Below are positions 1-12,289 of a stretch of DNA of 14,179 nt, in pieces. The notes under the pieces are model-generated. The model saw only the letters and a list, made by a program, of their open reading frames with translations, searched no databases and was not told where the DNA came from. Location of the stretch: the NCBI GenBank assembly GCA_030618495.1, contig JAUXDE010000040.1:1-14179 (forward strand), given 5' to 3'. The stretch is from Clostridia bacterium (GTDB taxonomy: Bacteria; UBA6262; WVXT01; JAUXBS01). Positions within the stretch are counted from its first letter, which is position 1. The number at the start of each line of letters is the position of its first letter. The translations under genes and the position numbers were made by a program.

Positions 1-2536
1 ACTTTCCTGTCTTTGGCATTTTATCTATTTCTTTTTTTATCAGTTCCGCGTCTCCGGCCCCAGGATTGAGTTCCAGGTACTTCCGCCAATAACCTGCCGC
101 CTTGCCGTAATCCTCCCTGCCGAAACACAGGATGCCCGCGTTCTTGTACGCCGACGCGTACGCGGGATTTGCATCCATCTCCCTTTTGTACGCCTCTATT
201 GCCTTCTCCGTTTGTCCCGTCTTATCATAGGCAATACCCAGGTTGTAGTTAAGTTCCCTGTAATCCGGTTTTAACTCCAGCGCTTTCTCAAGCTCGCTTA
301 TCATGGCGTTCCAGTCACTGCCGCTGTACCTCATGGCGAGATTGAAATGCGCGTCGAAGTACTGCGGGTTTACCCGGGTTGCCTTCCTGAACATGCCGAT
401 TGCCTTTTCATTCATGCCCATTTTACTGTAAACCGCGCCGAGGTTATTGTACGCTTCGGTATAATCGGGTTTTTTCCTTATGGCAATTTTATAATTTTTT
501 ATCGACTCCCCGTTTTTTCCAATCGCATCATACAATGCCGCAAGGTTGAAATACGCCGACGCGTAGGAGCGCTTGAGGCTGATTGCTTTCCTGTATTTTG
601 TTATCGCCCGGTCGTGATAACCCCTGCGAAAAAGCATGTTGGCGTAATTGACGTAACCCTCGGCATAGTCCGGTTTGAGCCTGAGCGCCTCTTTAAAGGC
701 GTTCTCGGAATCATCCCACTTCAATTTCTTCTGATAAAGCACCCCCAGGCTGCTTTGCGCCTCGTAAAACCCGGGATATATGTCCAGCGCTTTTCTGTAT
801 TCGTATTCCGCGGCATCATCCATCCCTATCAACTCCAGGAAATTCTTCGCCGTGTTATGGCGCAGGTACGCCTGCCTGAACTTCCATGCCCCCCTGCCGT
901 TACTCGCAGTCTCTATTCTTCTTTCTATCCCTGCATGGTCATTAAAATCAGTACGGTATTTCCTTATCATATCCTCATTTTCCACAACGCGCTTTACAAA
1001 TACGGACGCGATGCCGTCGAGGTACACGAGCGCCCAGTCACGAGACGCGTACAACTCCGGGATGAACCTCCGGGATTCGGATGAACCGTGGGTGAAGAGA
1101 GTGTAATCAATACCGTACTTTGCGGCAATGACCTCCCATGATGAAGACCGGTTTATCATCTTCCAGTAATCAATCAGGAATTCATCCCCGAACACCTCCC
1201 ACCTGCCGTCGATGAAAACCTTCCTTTCGGGCCAGCACCTCCAGGTGAAGTATCCACCGACACTGCCGTTGTTGAAAATATTTCCGCTGATATTGTTTTC
1301 CCTGATAAAATCAACCGCCCTTGACGGGTATTCCGTTTCCGACTCCCCCAGCCCGAACCACGAGAGACTTCTCTTTTTATAATAATAACCGCCTGTAATT
1401 ATTCCCGCAATACCCACGACTATTAATATCCCCGTCACGAGCCGGAAAACATGTTTCATAACGGGAACTGTTTTCGCAATAAGCTCCCGGTGGTTCTTTT
1501 TGGGGATAATTCCCGGGAATGCCGGTAAATCACCTTTAATATTATCGAATATCAAGGGCATCGCGACAAATCCGAGTAAAGGCATATTCCTTCTTGCAAG
1601 CAGCGACACGTACAGGACGCCTGCAAAAATTATCACATTGCTTACGTTTAACTTCCTGATATTTATAAGAATACTTGCCAGGGACATCAGTATCGTAAGC
1701 TTGAACAGGACCACCGCAAGTTCGTCACCCGCGCTGTACAGGGACGGTTTTAGCTCAGCCACCAGCTGCATCCATTCGCTTGCCCCGCTGCCGATCTCGG
1801 TGAATATTAGGAAAGGATAAAGCGCTCCCGAAAATCCCTGCGGGTTGATAAAAGACACGGCAACCGTGGCAAAAGCGACAATAAGAAGATTCCTGTATTT
1901 CCTGCCCTCTATTATATGAGCATCCGGCGGGCTGAACGGAAGCCTGAGGTTCTTTAACTTCCGGGATATTTGTTCGCCCGCAAGGTACGCCAGCACCATT
2001 ACTATACCTATCACGTGCAGCCCGTGCATGTTAGACCACACGATATGCGCCGGCGGCAGGAGCCAGATAAGATTTTTATTCTTGTATTTGTAGGCGTTAA
2101 GGATGTACATGTAAAACGCCATGAAAAGAAACGTGAACATCTCGGGCCTTACAAGCAGCCTCTCGTTTGTCATTAAGACCGTGATAAGAAGTAAAATCAG
2201 CGAAACCATGAACCTGCGCCTGCTGTAACCGGTTTTAAACAAAAGGAAAAACGCCAGGGCAAATACCAATAACCTCAACAAGGGAAGACCGTTGATTCCA
2301 AATAGAGCGTAGAAACCGTAAAGAACCAGCTGGAAGAGCCAGTGGGAATCAATCCACCTGCGCCCTTCGGCTGTAAAGGAGTAGGCGTCCTGTTTCGGGA
2401 CGGAGTGGGTTTTAAATATTACCTCCCCCGTCTTCAGGTGGAACCACACGTCAGAGCATGTCACGGGCCGAATCAAAAAAACAACCGTAAAAAGGAACAA
2501 AAGAATTATAAGCGTATATCTTACTGTCTTTTCCAT
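1..2536 (-). CDS. Polytopic membrane protein with C-terminal TPR domain (3' end cut by window edge)
   Basis: My hand translation of the minus strand stays open from the ATG at 2536 to the window edge: 845 complete codons and no stop. The start is fixed by an in-frame TAA four codons upstream and an AGGGA ribosome site just before the ATG. The N-terminal half is strongly hydrophobic, with many membrane segments between about residues 5 and 400. An early DVWFH motif (residues 29-33) is followed by SHW (64-66), RPEMFTF (130-136) and WSNMHG (167-172), a pattern I associate with GT-C-like bacterial membrane proteins. A probably extracytoplasmic region has NNGSVGGYFTW and FIDGRWEVFG. From about residue 560 to the edge there are about eight TPR units. 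Only the extreme C-terminus is probably missing, because the tail aligns to the end of the neighbouring TPR protein. It lies 23 bp downstream of that gene and is probably cotranscribed. A role in surface glycan or protein glycosylation is inference; the substrate is unknown. Confidence 0.88.
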   Translation of the reverse strand, partial: MEKTVRYTLIILLFLFTVVFLIRPVTCSDVWFHLKTGEVIFKTHSVPKQDAYSFTAEGRRWIDSHWLFQLVLYGFYALFGINGLPLLRLLVFALAFFLLFKTGYSRRRFMVSLILLLITVLMTNERLLVRPEMFTFLFMAFYMYILNAYKYKNKNLIWLLPPAHIVWSNMHGLHVIGIVMVLAYLAGEQISRKLKNLRLPFSPPDAHIIEGRKYRNLLIVAFATVAVSFINPQGFSGALYPFLIFTEIGSGASEWMQLVAELKPSLYSAGDELAVVLFKLTILMSLASILINIRKLNVSNVIIFAGVLYVSLLARRNMPLLGFVAMPLIFDNIKGDLPAFPGIIPKKNHRELIAKTVPVMKHVFRLVTGILIVVGIAGIITGGYYYKKRSLSWFGLGESETEYPSRAVDFIRENNISGNIFNNGSVGGYFTWRCWPERKVFIDGRWEVFGDEFLIDYWKMINRSSSWEVIAAKYGIDYTLFTHGSSESRRFIPELYASRDWALVYLDGIASVFVKRVVENEDMIRKYRTDFNDHAGIERRIETASNGRGAWKFRQAYLRHNTAKNFLELIGMDDAAEYEYRKALDIYPGFYEAQSSLGVLYQKKLKWDDSENAFKEALRLKPDYAEGYVNYANMLFRRGYHDRAITKYRKAISLKRSYASAYFNLAALYDAIGKNGESIKNYKIAIRKKPDYTEAYNNLGAVYSKMGMNEKAIGMFRKATRVNPQYFDAHFNLAMRYSGSDWNAMISELEKALELKPDYRELNYNLGIAYDKTGQTEKAIEAYKREMDANPAYASAYKNAGILCFGREDYGKAAGYWRKYLELNPGAGDAELIKKEIDKMPKTGK

Positions 2537-2559
2537 GTTTCCCTGTTATTTTTCCGTTG

Positions 2560-4695
2560 TCATTCAACTTTCAGCGATTTTAACCTCTTGATTTCCTTTG
2601 CCACGACAGCCCCGTCAACAGCGTCCGAACATAATTCCAGGTACTTCTCCCAGTTTTTAACAGCTTGTTCGTTTTTTCCCGAGTTATAGTACAGGATGCC
2701 CGCGTTTTTGTATGAAGAGGCATACTCGGGATTGATATCGATTTCACTGTTGTATTCGTTTATTGCTTCTTCTATCATTTGCTTCTTCTCATACGCGACT
2801 CCAAGATTATAATGCGCTTCCTTGAATTCGCCGTCAAGTTCTATTGTCTTCCGCAGCCACTCAATCATCTCGTCAATCCGGTTGATACTGTACGTTATAG
2901 CAAGGTTAAAGTGCGCATCCGTATATTCTGGGTCCTTCTTCACGGCGGTCATGAAGATTTTTATTGCCCTGTCAGTCAACCCCTTTTCCCTGTATATAAC
3001 AGCCATGTTGTTGTACGCCTCTGCATGGCCAGGGTCATACTCAACCACCTTCTTGTATATCTCCAATGCCTCATCGCTCCTGCCGGTATCGGCGTAGGTG
3101 ACCCCGAGGTTGAACCGCGCGTCCACGTACGATTCTTTAATCGAAAGGGACTTCCTGTAGTTGGCTATCGCCAAATCGTATTTCTCCATCCTCTTGTAGG
3201 CGTTGCCCATGTTGGCGTACGCTTCATAATAGTTTTTATTCATCCTGATTGCGGTTTCATATTCCCTTATGGCATCATCGTAGCGTTCCAGCTTCTGGTA
3301 AGTGTTTGCGAGGTTATTGTAAGTTATAATGAATCTCGGATTTATTTCAAGTGACTCCTTGTAGTACCGTATAGCCTTATCATATTCCTCCTTGTCGGAA
3401 TAATGAATTCCAAGGCTTGTAAGGGCCCTGAAACTCTTATCCCTGCTCTCAAGCGTTTTTGACCACAGCGTAAAATCGCTCCGCCAGTCGGCGTTGCGGA
3501 ACACGGTTAATACGGAATAAAGGACAACCATCACGGCCACAAGAATATACACGGCTTTTTCCGTCTTTGCGAACCTTGCCGATTTTGAAACAATAACCGC
3601 GCAGAGCATGCAGAAGCCAACCGACGGCATGTAAAGGAATCTTTCGGCTATCAATGCCTGCAGGGGCACGATGTTTGATACCGGCAGAAGGGCGATGATG
3701 AACCAGAATATACCGAAAGTCGCCAGCTTCGAATACCTGTGCGCCTTAAACGAAAGCAGCAACAACCCTGCCGCAAACAGGAACGAGAAAATAACAAACG
3801 GCTCAAGGATTGTCATTGAAACCGGTATATCGTAATCCACGCAGAGATTTACGGGTAACACCAATAGCCTGGCGTAGTGGACGAACACCTTCGACATGGT
3901 AAGAATGGTGGGTACTATGCCCCCTCCCCAGTATGACTGCTGGCTGACCCTGCCGATAGCGGCATAGCGCAAAACAAGGTACCCGGCGCTCAGCAGGAAA
4001 AAGGGGATGTACTCTTTCAGCAGGCTGAAATCCCATTTCTTCCTGTAGATGAGTTTCGACCAGTTTCCTGGATACATCACGTAATCATACGCTATGATGA
4101 TAAGGGGGAAACATATTGCCATTTCCTTTGTCAGCAGCGCCACCGCGTACAGGATAACGGATAGCCTGTAATCCCCGGACTGTTTAACGTTGAGCCTGTC
4201 CCTGTACCTGATGTAATAATAAAAGGACAGCAGGCAAAGGAATAAACATATCGTGTTCCCCCTGCCGGCAATCCAGGAAACCGCCTCCGTCTGTACGGGG
4301 TGCGCGATGAATACCAGGCCTCCAACCAGGGCGGGCAGGTCTTTCTTTATTAACAACCTTAAAACGAAAAACACCATTACGCCCGCGAGTATATGGAAAA
4401 GTGTATTGAGTATATGATAACCCGCGGGATTCATCTTCCATAATTTGTAGTCCAGGGCAAACGTAAGAGTAACTATGGGCCTGTAGATATAAAACTCACC
4501 CTTTGCTGAAAAGTACTGGGCGGAAACAAAATACCCCGGGATATTCTTAAGGCTCCTGATAGCCTTGTTATCAACGATGAACTCCTTGTCATCGTACACA
4601 AAATCATTTCTGAAGGTATTGGAAAAAACGATTAATCCAACCACCGTTATCAGTATTACCGCCTTGTTTTTCTTAATAAAATCCATAACTTTCAT
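2560..4695 (-). CDS. GT-C-like (TMTC/PMT-type) membrane glycosyltransferase with TPR tail
   Basis: This is a 711-residue protein. Residues 1-400 form a multi-spanning membrane domain with features of TMTC/PMT-like GT-C proteins: an acidic YDD in the first external loop (34-36), YRPI plus LDYKLW (71-86), GYHILNTLFH (92-101), HPVQTEAVSWIAGR (132-145), and ERFLYMPS (351-358). GT-C enzymes transfer sugars from lipid-linked donors on the outer face of the membrane, often to proteins, and the first-loop acidic residues are usually catalytic. Residues 420-690 hold eight TPR units, expected to bind a partner or acceptor protein. The start could be the ATG at 4695 or at 4686 (M4); the ribosome site is weak for both. 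The gene follows a low-GC TA pair after 105 bp and precedes a second TPR membrane gene by 23 bp. The architecture resembles eukaryotic TMTC O-mannosyltransferases. Family-level assignment is fairly sure; sugar and acceptor are unknown. Confidence 0.85.
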   Translation of the reverse strand: MKVMDFIKKNKAVILITVVGLIVFSNTFRNDFVYDDKEFIVDNKAIRSLKNIPGYFVSAQYFSAKGEFYIYRPIVTLTFALDYKLWKMNPAGYHILNTLFHILAGVMVFFVLRLLIKKDLPALVGGLVFIAHPVQTEAVSWIAGRGNTICLFLCLLSFYYYIRYRDRLNVKQSGDYRLSVILYAVALLTKEMAICFPLIIIAYDYVMYPGNWSKLIYRKKWDFSLLKEYIPFFLLSAGYLVLRYAAIGRVSQQSYWGGGIVPTILTMSKVFVHYARLLVLPVNLCVDYDIPVSMTILEPFVIFSFLFAAGLLLLSFKAHRYSKLATFGIFWFIIALLPVSNIVPLQALIAERFLYMPSVGFCMLCAVIVSKSARFAKTEKAVYILVAVMVVLYSVLTVFRNADWRSDFTLWSKTLESRDKSFRALTSLGIHYSDKEEYDKAIRYYKESLEINPRFIITYNNLANTYQKLERYDDAIREYETAIRMNKNYYEAYANMGNAYKRMEKYDLAIANYRKSLSIKESYVDARFNLGVTYADTGRSDEALEIYKKVVEYDPGHAEAYNNMAVIYREKGLTDRAIKIFMTAVKKDPEYTDAHFNLAITYSINRIDEMIEWLRKTIELDGEFKEAHYNLGVAYEKKQMIEEAINEYNSEIDINPEYASSYKNAGILYYNSGKNEQAVKNWEKYLELCSDAVDGAVVAKEIKRLKSLKVE

Positions 4696-4716
4696 TTATA
4701 AATCCAATCCTTTCCT

Positions 4717-4736
4717 CCCGCCCCCCAGTGGGCGGG
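4717..4736. repeat. GC-rich hairpin in the leader of the glycosyltransferase operon
   Basis: CCCGCCC (4717-4723) and GGGCGGG (4730-4736) form a perfect 7-bp stem with a 6-nt loop. In the leftward transcript it lies about 20 nt before the ATG at 4695, just upstream of AGGAAAGGA. No T-tract follows on either strand, so it is not a simple terminator. It may be a dispersed intergenic palindrome or a 5' stabilising hairpin. Confidence 0.5.
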
Positions 4737-4739
4737 TGG

Positions 4740-4754
4740 TGTAACATTGTTACA
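4740..4754. promoter_or_regulatory. 15-bp perfect palindrome, candidate operator
   Basis: TGTAACA-T-TGTTACA is a perfect odd-length palindrome between the toxin stop and the glycosyltransferase start. Its centre ACATTGT is identical to the centre of the palindrome in front of the antitoxin gene (5463-5469). It could be a second site for the ribbon-helix-helix antitoxin or a site for another dimeric regulator. Binding is inferred only. Confidence 0.4.
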
Positions 4755-4800: not shown

Positions 4801-5217
4801 TTAAATATCACCCGTACTGTTTTTCTTCAATTTATTCCATAATTCTCGAGGAGATATTATCAACACATATTTGTATTTTTTAATTTCCAGCAGATCTTTA
4901 TCCCCGGTTACAATAACATCAGCCTTCCCCGAGACAGCAGTCTCAATTATGGGAATATCATTTTTGTCTCTACATTTTATTCCTGACAGTTTTACGGGTT
5001 TTACTATTAAAGCTTCTTTTCTCAAGTATTCCTTTATTTCCCTGGTAACAGTTCCGGGTAATTTCAATGTCCCGGCTAAATGGTTTTCCACTTCTTTTAT
5101 TATATAATCGCTCAGAATGAATTCATGTTGTTTAAGACAACATTCAAATACATCATTGCATATCCCCCTTCCTGCGAATGCGGAAATAATCACGTTTGTG
5201 TCCAACACAATTTTCAA
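4801..5217 (-). CDS. PIN-domain toxin of a toxin-antitoxin pair (COG1569-type)
   Basis: This 138-residue PIN-domain protein is a probable Mg2+-dependent RNase that would cleave RNA when freed from its antitoxin. Visible acidic residues fit the PIN active site: D6 in the opening MKIVLDTNVI, E42/E44 in the helix after SDYIIKEV, D84 and D87 in RDKND, and D106/D108 in VTGDKDLL. The start codon is TTG, overlapping the antitoxin stop as TTGA (5217-5214); the family consensus begins exactly here, so translation is probably coupled to the antitoxin and weak by itself. Length is normal for the family, close to the 'putative toxin-antitoxin system toxin component, PIN family'. The gene is clearly more AT-rich than rsmA or the glycosyltransferase gene. 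The RNA target is unknown. Confidence 0.85.
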   Translation of the reverse strand: MKIVLDTNVIISAFAGRGICNDVFECCLKQHEFILSDYIIKEVENHLAGTLKLPGTVTREIKEYLRKEALIVKPVKLSGIKCRDKNDIPIIETAVSGKADVIVTGDKDLLEIKKYKYVLIISPRELWNKLKKNSTGDI

Positions 5218-5478: not shown

Positions 5479-5493
5479 TCATTGTTTCGTCAA
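5465..5493 (-). promoter_or_regulatory. Sigma70-type promoter of the TA operon
   Basis: TTGACG (5493-5488) and TACAAT (5470-5465) are separated by exactly 17 bp, matching consensus at five of six positions in each box. The -35 box consists of codons for Leu-Thr near the end of rsmA; the -10 box lies within the palindromic operator. Transcription would start near 5458, giving a leader of about 25 nt with the AGGAGG site. Confidence 0.7.
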
Positions 5494-6297
5494 GTGTTTT
5501 TTTATCAAATCCGAAATGGCCGCAAACTGGCTGATGGACAGTTTTTCCGGTCGGATATCGCGCTCTACCCCCGCCCCTTCCATCGCTTCCCACAGAACGC
5601 TTTTCTCCACGCCAAGCATGCCGCTTACGGAATTATACATCTTCTTTCTCCTCTGGGAAAACGCTGCCCTTGCCATTTTGAAAAAGAATTCCTCATCCTT
5701 AACGCTCACCTCCGGCTGTTTCCGGACGCACAACTTTATAACGGTAGAGTCAACCTTCGGGATTGGAAGAAAAACATTTCTTGAAACCCTGAAAACCTTC
5801 CTGACATCACAGCGGTACTGGATCGCCACAGACAGCATTCCGTAGTCCTTCCCCCCGGGGGAAGCCGTTATTCTGTCCGCGACTTCCTTCTGGACCATCA
5901 GCACGCACTCCACCGGCCTGAACTCATGGGGAATTGACAGAATTCTCATTATTAGAGGAGTAGTTATATTGTACGGCAGGTTACTGATAATCTTAACCGG
6001 AAACCCCGGGATTGAAACACGCTTCAACAGTTCTGCCAGGTCAATTTTCATGAAATCATCGCTGACGATTTCAAGGTTCTTATAAGATTCCAGTTTCTCC
6101 TTCAATCTTTCCGATAACACCCTGTCAATTTCAACCGCCACAACCCTGCCGGCTTTATCTGCAATACCGCCGGTCAATATGCCTTTACCCGGGCCTATCT
6201 CTAATACGGCATCATGCGGCTGGATTTCAGCCTCTTTTATTATCTTCCTGGCAATGTTGTGGTCAATAAGAAAATTTTGTCCCCAGCGTTTTTTCAT
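5479..6297 (-). CDS. rsmA: 16S rRNA (adenine1518-N6/adenine1519-N6)-dimethyltransferase RsmA (KsgA)
   Basis: This SAM-dependent enzyme dimethylates two adjacent adenines in the 3' terminal hairpin of 16S rRNA during late 30S assembly; loss gives kasugamycin resistance. The 272-residue length is normal. The family start MKKRWGQNFL is present. The SAM-binding motif is EIGPGKG (33-39) with acidic VEID (55-58). The catalytic motif IV is NLPYN (106-110). The conserved FLPIPKVDS follows (176-184), then AAFSQRRKK (211-219). Its start lies 35 bp inside pdxA, so the two are translationally linked; a weak AAGG lies in pdxA. The final codons also hold the -35 box of the downstream TA promoter. Confidence 0.97.
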   Translation of the reverse strand: MKKRWGQNFLIDHNIARKIIKEAEIQPHDAVLEIGPGKGILTGGIADKAGRVVAVEIDRVLSERLKEKLESYKNLEIVSDDFMKIDLAELLKRVSIPGFPVKIISNLPYNITTPLIMRILSIPHEFRPVECVLMVQKEVADRITASPGGKDYGMLSVAIQYRCDVRKVFRVSRNVFLPIPKVDSTVIKLCVRKQPEVSVKDEEFFFKMARAAFSQRRKKMYNSVSGMLGVEKSVLWEAMEGAGVERDIRPEKLSISQFAAISDLIKKHLTKQ

Positions 6298-12000: not shown

Positions 12001-12289
12001 GCGCCCCGAGGTCATCCCTGAACGCTTCGGAAGCATCTTCCCTTTCAGAAACAACCATTATGGGATTTGTAATTCTCTTCCTCAGGGCAAGGACGAAAAG
12101 AGCCCTGGAGGCGCCCCATAATCCGCAAACGCGGACGTTCCTCTTCCCCTCGGATATTGAATTACAGATTTCATTGATATTGGCGTCGTCTTTCGGTAGG
12201 GAAATCATTTTACTTGTATATCCAATTCTCTTCCCCCTCTCCCCTCGGGGGAGAGGGCAGGGTGAGGGGGTAATAATATTTTGTTTCAT
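9023..12289 (-). CDS. mfd: Transcription-repair coupling factor Mfd
   Basis: Mfd is a DNA translocase that removes RNA polymerase stalled at lesions and recruits UvrA. The frame gives 1088 residues from the ATG at 12289. The degenerate UvrB-like N-terminal part covers about 40-350 (with PGEFSVRGQIIDVW, 187-200). The RNA-polymerase interaction domain covers about 420-480 (MVHERYGIGMYLG). The RecG-like motor follows: Walker A GDVGYGKTE (572-580), DEEH (673-676), TATPIPRT (699-706), HQLRGRIGRD (841-850). The TRCF C-terminal domain covers about 943-1040. The first start overlaps the response-regulator stop as ATGA, but residues 6-20 are encoded by a dispersed palindromic repeat and are not Mfd sequence. 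The ATG at 12208 (M28) fits the usual Mfd beginning better; neither has a strong ribosome site. Confidence 0.96.
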   Translation of the reverse strand: MKQNIITPSPCPLPRGERGKRIGYTSKMISLPKDDANINEICNSISEGKRNVRVCGLWGASRALFVLALRKRITNPIMVVSEREDASEAFRDDLGALAGSGEQIRSYVFSHDLQEQSLIALSGLCSQFPAHSILFTTISSMQTRISSMDNFIGNSFDLNTGQVVDYDGLMGDFSSAGYERVDMVSRPGEFSVRGQIIDVWSAGFENPARVVLARDKIEEIKRFDIMSQRSTGPEDALHIIPAKPWLDSREEGTVILDWLAENTVVILDNISSHSVVGGMNITDDIREKTKTSVSFIELSVLTQKGSVNYGTQQVPSFNADINGFFNRLVEWKNEGMGIHVFCNNSAEKSRLIELLNETAGEGGGRAPEVDFRTGSLNTGFVWAQLKLVVVTDAEIFNRYKIKHHWPKLRQTPADFTELSELNMNDFMVHERYGIGMYLGLNQMRIEDRLADYIVLEYAGSDKLYVPIEDFRLVQKYIGAEGHMPKLSSLDSTSWSQAKRRARKSVMDIAGQLLDVHAARQALAGHAFPLDSDYEKEFADAFIYELTPAQEKAIKEVGGDMAGRKPMDRIICGDVGYGKTEVAMRASLKAVLDGKQVAVLVPTTILAEQHYNTFVERFADYPVKIEMMSRFRSRKQQDDIVGSLKEGQVDILIGTHRILQKDIEFSDLGLVIIDEEHRFGVRHKEELKQLRKLVDILMLTATPIPRTLSMAMGKVKDLSVINTPPPERIPVETYVGEYDDDTVKVAINNEVNRGGQVFYIHDRVDTIRSVAEYLKSMLPGVRICHAHGQMPSRELEKIMKDFVGKSYDLLISTTIVESGLDIPNVNTIIISNAQKMGLAQLHQLRGRIGRDKYQAFCYLLYPRKEPLSEIARKRLMVIAQHTELGAGFKIALKDLQIRGAGNLLGSRQHGHIMDVGFDLYCKLLGQAVEEKKTGREVPEEGIRSPVEIDLPVDAFIPMSYVSSSIQRINIYRRLSLASGRKAIDEIAEELTDRYGEIPPECHMLFEIVEIRQAARLLEIKTIEQKSDAVVIKFSDYKKIKPKKFSRISKEDDCLIKLGAGNEFSIVIKGMGVIDESRIKEIKNILQVLT
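12231..12270. repeat. Dispersed C/G-rich palindromic repeat ('CPLPRGERG' type)
   Basis: A 10-bp perfect stem, CCCTCTCCCC (12235-12244) and GGGGAGAGGG (12248-12257) with a TCG loop, is followed by CAGGGTGAGGGGG (12258-12270). Read leftward in the mfd frame it encodes TPSPCPLPRGERGK. I recall this peptide from many small or N-terminally extended ORFs in unrelated genomes, where it marks a mobile intergenic repeat. It lacks a T-tract and is not a terminator. Outer boundaries are approximate. Confidence 0.7.

Follow-up and report, generated by a model that had tools for sequence, protein, structure and literature searches.

The C-terminal TPR tails of two adjacent genes, A and B, contain one module that is homologous and colinear in four proteins (A, B, X, and T) in both genomes of the genus, and the shared tail is real rather than a product of chance. 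Three head types (STT3-fold, TMTC-like, and TMEM260-like) bear the module, on four or more genes in all. Its spread by tail duplication and recombination, or equivalently by head swapping, ahead of the divergence of the two genomes is well supported. The best explanation of the whole, held with moderate confidence, is that A and B belong with other polytopic GT-C glycosyltransferase-like proteins in a tandem set bearing one copied C-terminal TPR module, with a common acceptor bound through the groove of the tail.

Gene content of the window

The window is the whole stretch of DNA analysed, an entire contig (G000:C117) of 14,179 bases from a 1.7-Mb draft genome that is 98% complete. The features considered are listed by window coordinates.

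2..2536, minus strand: gene A, STT3-fold ("DVWFH") GT-C head and TPR tail (predicted fold); 845 aa in the window, stop codon past the contig end
887..2536, minus strand: gene A head, residues 1-550; predicted multi-spanning GT-C fold and C-terminal alpha/beta domain
2..562, minus strand: shared module, gene A copy, residues 659-845; units -5 to -1 and cap
260..358, minus strand: short TPR unit of A, 33 residues (727-759, FDAHFNLAMRYSGSDWNAM...), from TPR-profile segmentation
2560..4695, minus strand: gene B, TMTC-like GT-C head and TPR tail (predicted fold); 711 aa, complete
3445..4695, minus strand: gene B head, residues 1-417; TMTC motifs YDD 34-36, YRP 71-73, R145, KE 190-191, P338..P344, and ERxxY 351-355
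2563..3126, minus strand: shared module, gene B copy, residues 524-711; colinear with the A copy
2824..2922, minus strand: short TPR unit of B, 33 residues (592-624, TDAHFNLAITYSINRIDEM...), from TPR-profile segmentation
5479..6297, minus strand: KsgA/RsmA-like gene upstream of gene B, named from sequence by eye

Genes B and A are on the same strand with 23 bases between them. In the congener (Clostridia bacterium CSMAG_2805, G001), which is the other genome of the genus examined, the KsgA-like gene directly abuts or overlaps gene B, so that B and A close a conserved gene string. In the window, a PIN-domain gene (PF13470, 4e-15; 4801-5217, minus strand) separates gene B from the KsgA-like gene; the congener is without it, and KsgA and B overlap there. 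Two other features were seen by eye: a short, G+C-rich inverted repeat (cccgccccccagtgggcggg) at 4715-4742, just upstream of gene B, and the opening stretch of an Mfd-like reading frame (12206-12289, minus strand), ITPSPCPLPRGERGKR, which resembles a dispersed repeat in translation. The Mfd-like frame probably has its true start further in.

The shared TPR module

A TPR profile was used to cut the tails of 31 proteins into units, giving eight units each in A and B. The first-pass annotation had described colinear tails in these two proteins, with a 33-residue unit at the same place, a YNLG-x-AY unit next to it, and shared endings, and all of this is present as described. The 33-residue unit is third from the end in both proteins, the next unit has YNLG(I/V)AY, and both end with NP(A/E)YAS(A/S)YKNAGIL and then W(R/E)KYLEL. 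In equal register, the units of A and B have a mean BLOSUM62 score of 61.9 per unit, with 38% identity over all eight, compared to 41.2 for the best shifted register; control pairs (e.g., A/C129, A/A84, B/B108, and B/B53) have no register preference or a much weaker one. Shuffling of unit order gave p = 0.0003 for the eight units, and the natural order of the last four is the best of all 24 orders. When ranked against about 180 other units, equivalent A/B units -1 to -4 are at or near the top; the match weakens at -5 and -6 and is lost at -7 and -8. The shared module, about 185 residues long, therefore comprises the C-terminal cap and the four to five units that precede it. The earlier argument for common descent of the tail had been staked on this comparison of equivalent units with unrelated TPRs; equivalent units are the closer, and the register tests, the tail clade, and the profiles described below all bear the argument out.

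Module specificity was assessed by leaving out one family at a time, so that profiles built from three families scored the fourth, which avoids training bias. Held-out complete tails scored 193-261 bits and the truncated congener copy of A scored 172 bits, while the best other TPR protein, with the strongest TPR matches of a 386-genome search included, reached 147 bits. A search for the pairing of these heads with this tail in other genomes, as the first-pass annotation had suggested, succeeded in the congener, but no comparable module match was found in the 384 genomes searched outside the genus. Among the genomes searched the module is thus confined to this genus, in a phylum of six genomes.

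Additional carriers of the module

In the window's genome, a search detected about 20 proteins with heads of the B type and four with heads of the A type. A small contig of this genome (C59) adds two further tail copies, those of X, with its head cut off, and T. The head of gene T (L009:641-3055) is TMEM260-like, matching PF11028 at 7e-32 (111.1 bits, against a gathering score of 24.2). The congener carries A, B, X, and T: contig C257 has B and A downstream of the KsgA-like gene, while contig C28 has X, here with a TMTC-type head, and T, along with the TMTC-type genes Y and Z. The ends of these two contigs overlap by exactly 117 bases. The record name gives this length as the k-mer size, and the contigs are thus adjacent in the assembly graph. 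In the congener, the order inferred across this overlap is KsgA, B, A, a pilin-like gene, X, T, Y, and Z on one strand. The window contig has no direct overlap with C59, and the full gene string is therefore assembled for the congener only. Colinear register with the 33-residue unit third from the end was found in A, B, X, and T, so the module is not limited to the two genes on which it was originally noticed. Elsewhere in the window's genome (contigs C53 and C90; L010 and L014), TMEM260-type genes directly adjoin TMTC-type genes, and these two head types thus also travel together without this tail.

The membrane heads

The residues conserved in the head of gene A are D29xWxH33, R130-P-E132, E261, GGY427-429, and D443-G-R445. 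The AlphaFold model of gene A has a mean pLDDT of 90.4. When whole models were submitted to Foldseek, TPR matches filled the list, and the heads were resolved with VIA-align. Residues 1-516 of the gene A model align with residues 12-683 of STT3 (8age_A) with a Z-score of 22.3 (446 aligned, 4.1 A), in a superposition that takes in both the membrane part and the C-terminal domain; the model also matches PglB (5ogl, 18.2) and AglB (7e9s, 18.7). A Pfam search of the head returned no family, and a profile search of solved structures (PDB) returned no chain related to it by sequence. The WWD of the acceptor-recognition motif WWDxG is absent from six DVWFH-headed proteins of the genus, and on this basis gene A, whose likeness to STT3 is that of a predicted model, is called STT3-like and is not filed under GT66 oligosaccharyltransferases.

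Records named Elusimicrobia, Omnitrophota, Nitrospirae, Deltaproteobacteria, and Acidobacteria contain relatives of the gene A head, and some of these relatives (L105, L106, L108, and L110; about 505 aa) consist of the head only, with no TPR tail. The DVWFH heads thus point to an STT3-fold enzyme family in several phyla that has no Pfam entry. A TMTC-type gene adjoins an A-type gene in five lineages. On one Elusimicrobia contig (L122:249-6313), two TMTC-type genes are followed on the same strand by an A-type gene that is interrupted by masked bases. The adjacent TMTC-type and A-type tails at L122 are not colinear, and a general rule that such neighbours share tails was rejected for this reason; the pairs at L069, L121, and L123 have too few TPR units for this comparison.

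The head of gene B was compared with the motifs of human TMTC proteins (PMC7801869). YDD lies in the first extracytoplasmic loop and is accompanied by YRP, and D35, D36, and P73 are invariant in 17 relatives. The counterpart of KE(T/Q)xxT is KEM (190-192), in which K190 and E191 are invariant but the T is not conserved; the counterpart of PxxP is PVSNIVP (338-344), with wider proline spacing; and that of ERxxY is ERFLY. For the DW motif of loop 4, DYD (287-289) is plausibly placed, but it lacks the W, and its D is not shared by the relatives in general. PF08409 scores 16.1 bits on gene B (E 0.011), compared to a cut-off of 27, and reaches an E-value of 0.1 or better in eight of the 17 relatives. 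Since the score is below the cut-off, gene B is called TMTC-like. The model of gene B, with its C-terminal array of eight TPR units, has a mean pLDDT of 86 and matches the membrane part of STT3 with a Z-score of 21.4 over 334 residues. Both heads of the window are therefore predicted to have the GT-C fold. The earlier statement that the heads share no motifs is correct for the sequences, but does not extend to this predicted fold. Judging from fold and motifs, the heads would be catalytically competent.

Conflict between tail and head relationships

In the tail tree, a single clade unites A, B, X, and T with support of 97/97 (23 rows) or 95/94 (20 rows); A is paired with X (96/91), and each orthologue is placed with its counterpart. 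When the DVWFH-headed proteins (A, A154, and A268) were constrained to have their tails in one clade, the AU test rejected the arrangement (p = 0.006); the corresponding constraint on the TMTC-headed B and X was weakly rejected (p = 0.043). The head of A is nearest to that of a paralogue with a different tail, whereas the tail of A is nearest to that of X. Pairwise identities follow the same division: A and A154 are 45% identical in their heads and 31% in their tails, whereas A and X are 26% identical in their heads and 54-59% in their tails. A154 and A268 also have a short unit, but their tails are shorter and end differently. The tail tree requires the head type to have changed three times or more, indicating that this tail joined with heads more than once. 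Because the tail clade conflicts with the relationships of the heads, either the tail was copied or the heads were swapped, which are the two routes that the first-pass annotation had suggested.

Possible role of the shared tail

TPR positions 2, 5, 9, 12, 13, 33, and 34 line the concave face, determine specificity, and are the most variable (PMC1261162). Consistent with this, groove positions in control TPR units of this genome are less alike than those of the exposed helix B (0.12 vs 0.20). In the shared tails the order is the reverse, with groove and helix-B conservation of 0.42 and 0.28 between families (p = 0.064) and 0.63 and 0.46 between orthologues (p = 0.004). Most of the signal comes from positions 5 and 2, for which the excess over non-colinear pairs is 0.68 and 0.45, respectively. 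Such conservation would fit selection for one ligand, but is no proof of it.

The TPRs of TMTC and TMEM260 proteins have been proposed to recruit protein substrates (PMC11292533). If the bacterial proteins are arranged like human TMTC and TMEM260, their TPR tails would be on the outer side of the membrane beside the catalytic loops. The concave groove of the tails may then recruit a common acceptor protein or scaffold, allowing enzymes of different chemistry to act on one target. The best present candidate for this acceptor is a type IV pilin-like protein. Each genome of the genus has a locus (L158 in G000:C15 and L159 in G001:C87) at which a TMTC-type gene stands downstream of type IV pilus genes and a pilin, in the same orientation; PilB, PilT, and PilC were named by eye in both. 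Family f2, which belongs to the same taxonomic order, has the pilus genes without the TMTC-type gene, and other genes follow the pilin in the related genomes G002, G003, and G005. The congener also has a second pilin-like gene, between A and X (L063:7962-8375, contig C28), which encodes a protein of 137 aa. This protein lacks the usual GFTLIE prepilin start and had no match in a Pfam search, but it is related to the type IV pilin of the genus (E 1e-11). In the genome to which the window belongs, no pilin-like gene was found next to A, where one may fall in an assembly gap, and the link to pilin rests on these two genomes.

Docking of the tails to one acceptor is plausible because the groove residues are conserved and a pilin-like gene is present in the operon of the congener. 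The first-pass annotation had gone further in proposing one docking partner for both enzymes, which groove conservation, the recruitment proposal (PMC11292533), and the pilin neighbours make plausible, with the common partner itself being inferred. The more specific proposal, that STT3-, TMTC-, and TMEM260-like enzymes share a substrate-recruiting TPR module aimed at one surface protein, probably pilin-like, is put forward only tentatively. If it is true, nature would have provided evidence that substrate choice in this enzyme class lies with the TPR tail and not with the catalytic head.

TPR arrays are prone to recombination, and the tails could be alike by descent only, the module having been copied within a repeat-rich array and kept for structure or stability while the proteins act on different acceptors. 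In favour of this, the TPR tails of most of the roughly 20 TMTC-type genes in the genome are unrelated, and neighbours elsewhere (L122) do not share a tail. Against it, the normally variable groove positions 2 and 5 are conserved in a unit-specific manner, and four copies have stayed in register in both genomes. Descent alone is thus rather unlikely, though it is the strongest competitor to recruitment of a common acceptor.

GT-C enzymes also modify glycolipids, as in the case of ArnT, and the set could build a surface polysaccharide, with the tail binding a sugar polymer or lipid-linked glycan and holding the growing chain. A polysaccharide-binding bacterial TPR domain is known, that of PgaA with PNAG (PMC9384988). 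The heads of B, X, and T belong instead to protein O-mannosyltransferase families (TMTC-like and TMEM260-like), pilin genes adjoin relatives, and no polysaccharide synthesis genes are evident within the window, making a glycan ligand improbable.

A tandem arrangement and repeats favour gene conversion, but the tails are closer to their orthologues (60-68%) than to their neighbours (38-59%) and the similarity of A and X within genomes (58, 57) does not exceed that between genomes (54, 59), so recent conversion that keeps neighbouring tails alike was rejected as very improbable. Convergence on the TPR consensus was rejected as the least probable of all: consensus residues do account for much of the raw similarity, and YLxLxPDAPDA-like endings recur in several TPR proteins of the genome, but equivalent units are closer than non-equivalent ones, the short unit is shared, the tails form one clade, and the leave-one-out profiles leave a gap to all other TPR proteins.

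Comparison with known systems

The gene set described here belongs to a known kind, that of TPR-tailed GT-C enzymes; a literature search of partial coverage found no title or abstract on such a bacterial gene set. For the TPRs of human TMTC1-4 and TMEM260, the bacterial set is a natural domain-swap experiment bearing on the recruitment proposal (PMC11292533).

The top structural matches of the tail include O-GlcNAc transferase (OGT), designed TPRs, and MamA. OGT likewise has a TPR superhelix joined to a glycosyltransferase; however, it is a soluble GT-B enzyme, unlike the predicted GT-C membrane heads here. Gene A resembles STT3, PglB, and AglB (GT66) in its predicted GT-C fold, its C-terminal soluble domain, the DxWFH of the first loop, and the invariant E261 inside a VAELxP stretch, but differs in having no WWD, no structure match at the level of sequence, and a TPR tail. 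B and X resemble TMTC1-4 (GT-C, with a PF08409 region and TPRs) in having YDD in loop 1, R in loop 2, KE in loop 3, PVSNIVP, ERxxY, and a C-terminal TPR array, with YRP in B. They differ in being bacterial, in the sub-threshold PF08409 match, and in that their tail is also found on non-TMTC heads. Gene T, like the protein O-mannosyltransferase TMEM260, has a PF11028 head and C-terminal TPRs, but it is bacterial, and its TPR tail is the module that is also carried by A, B, and X.
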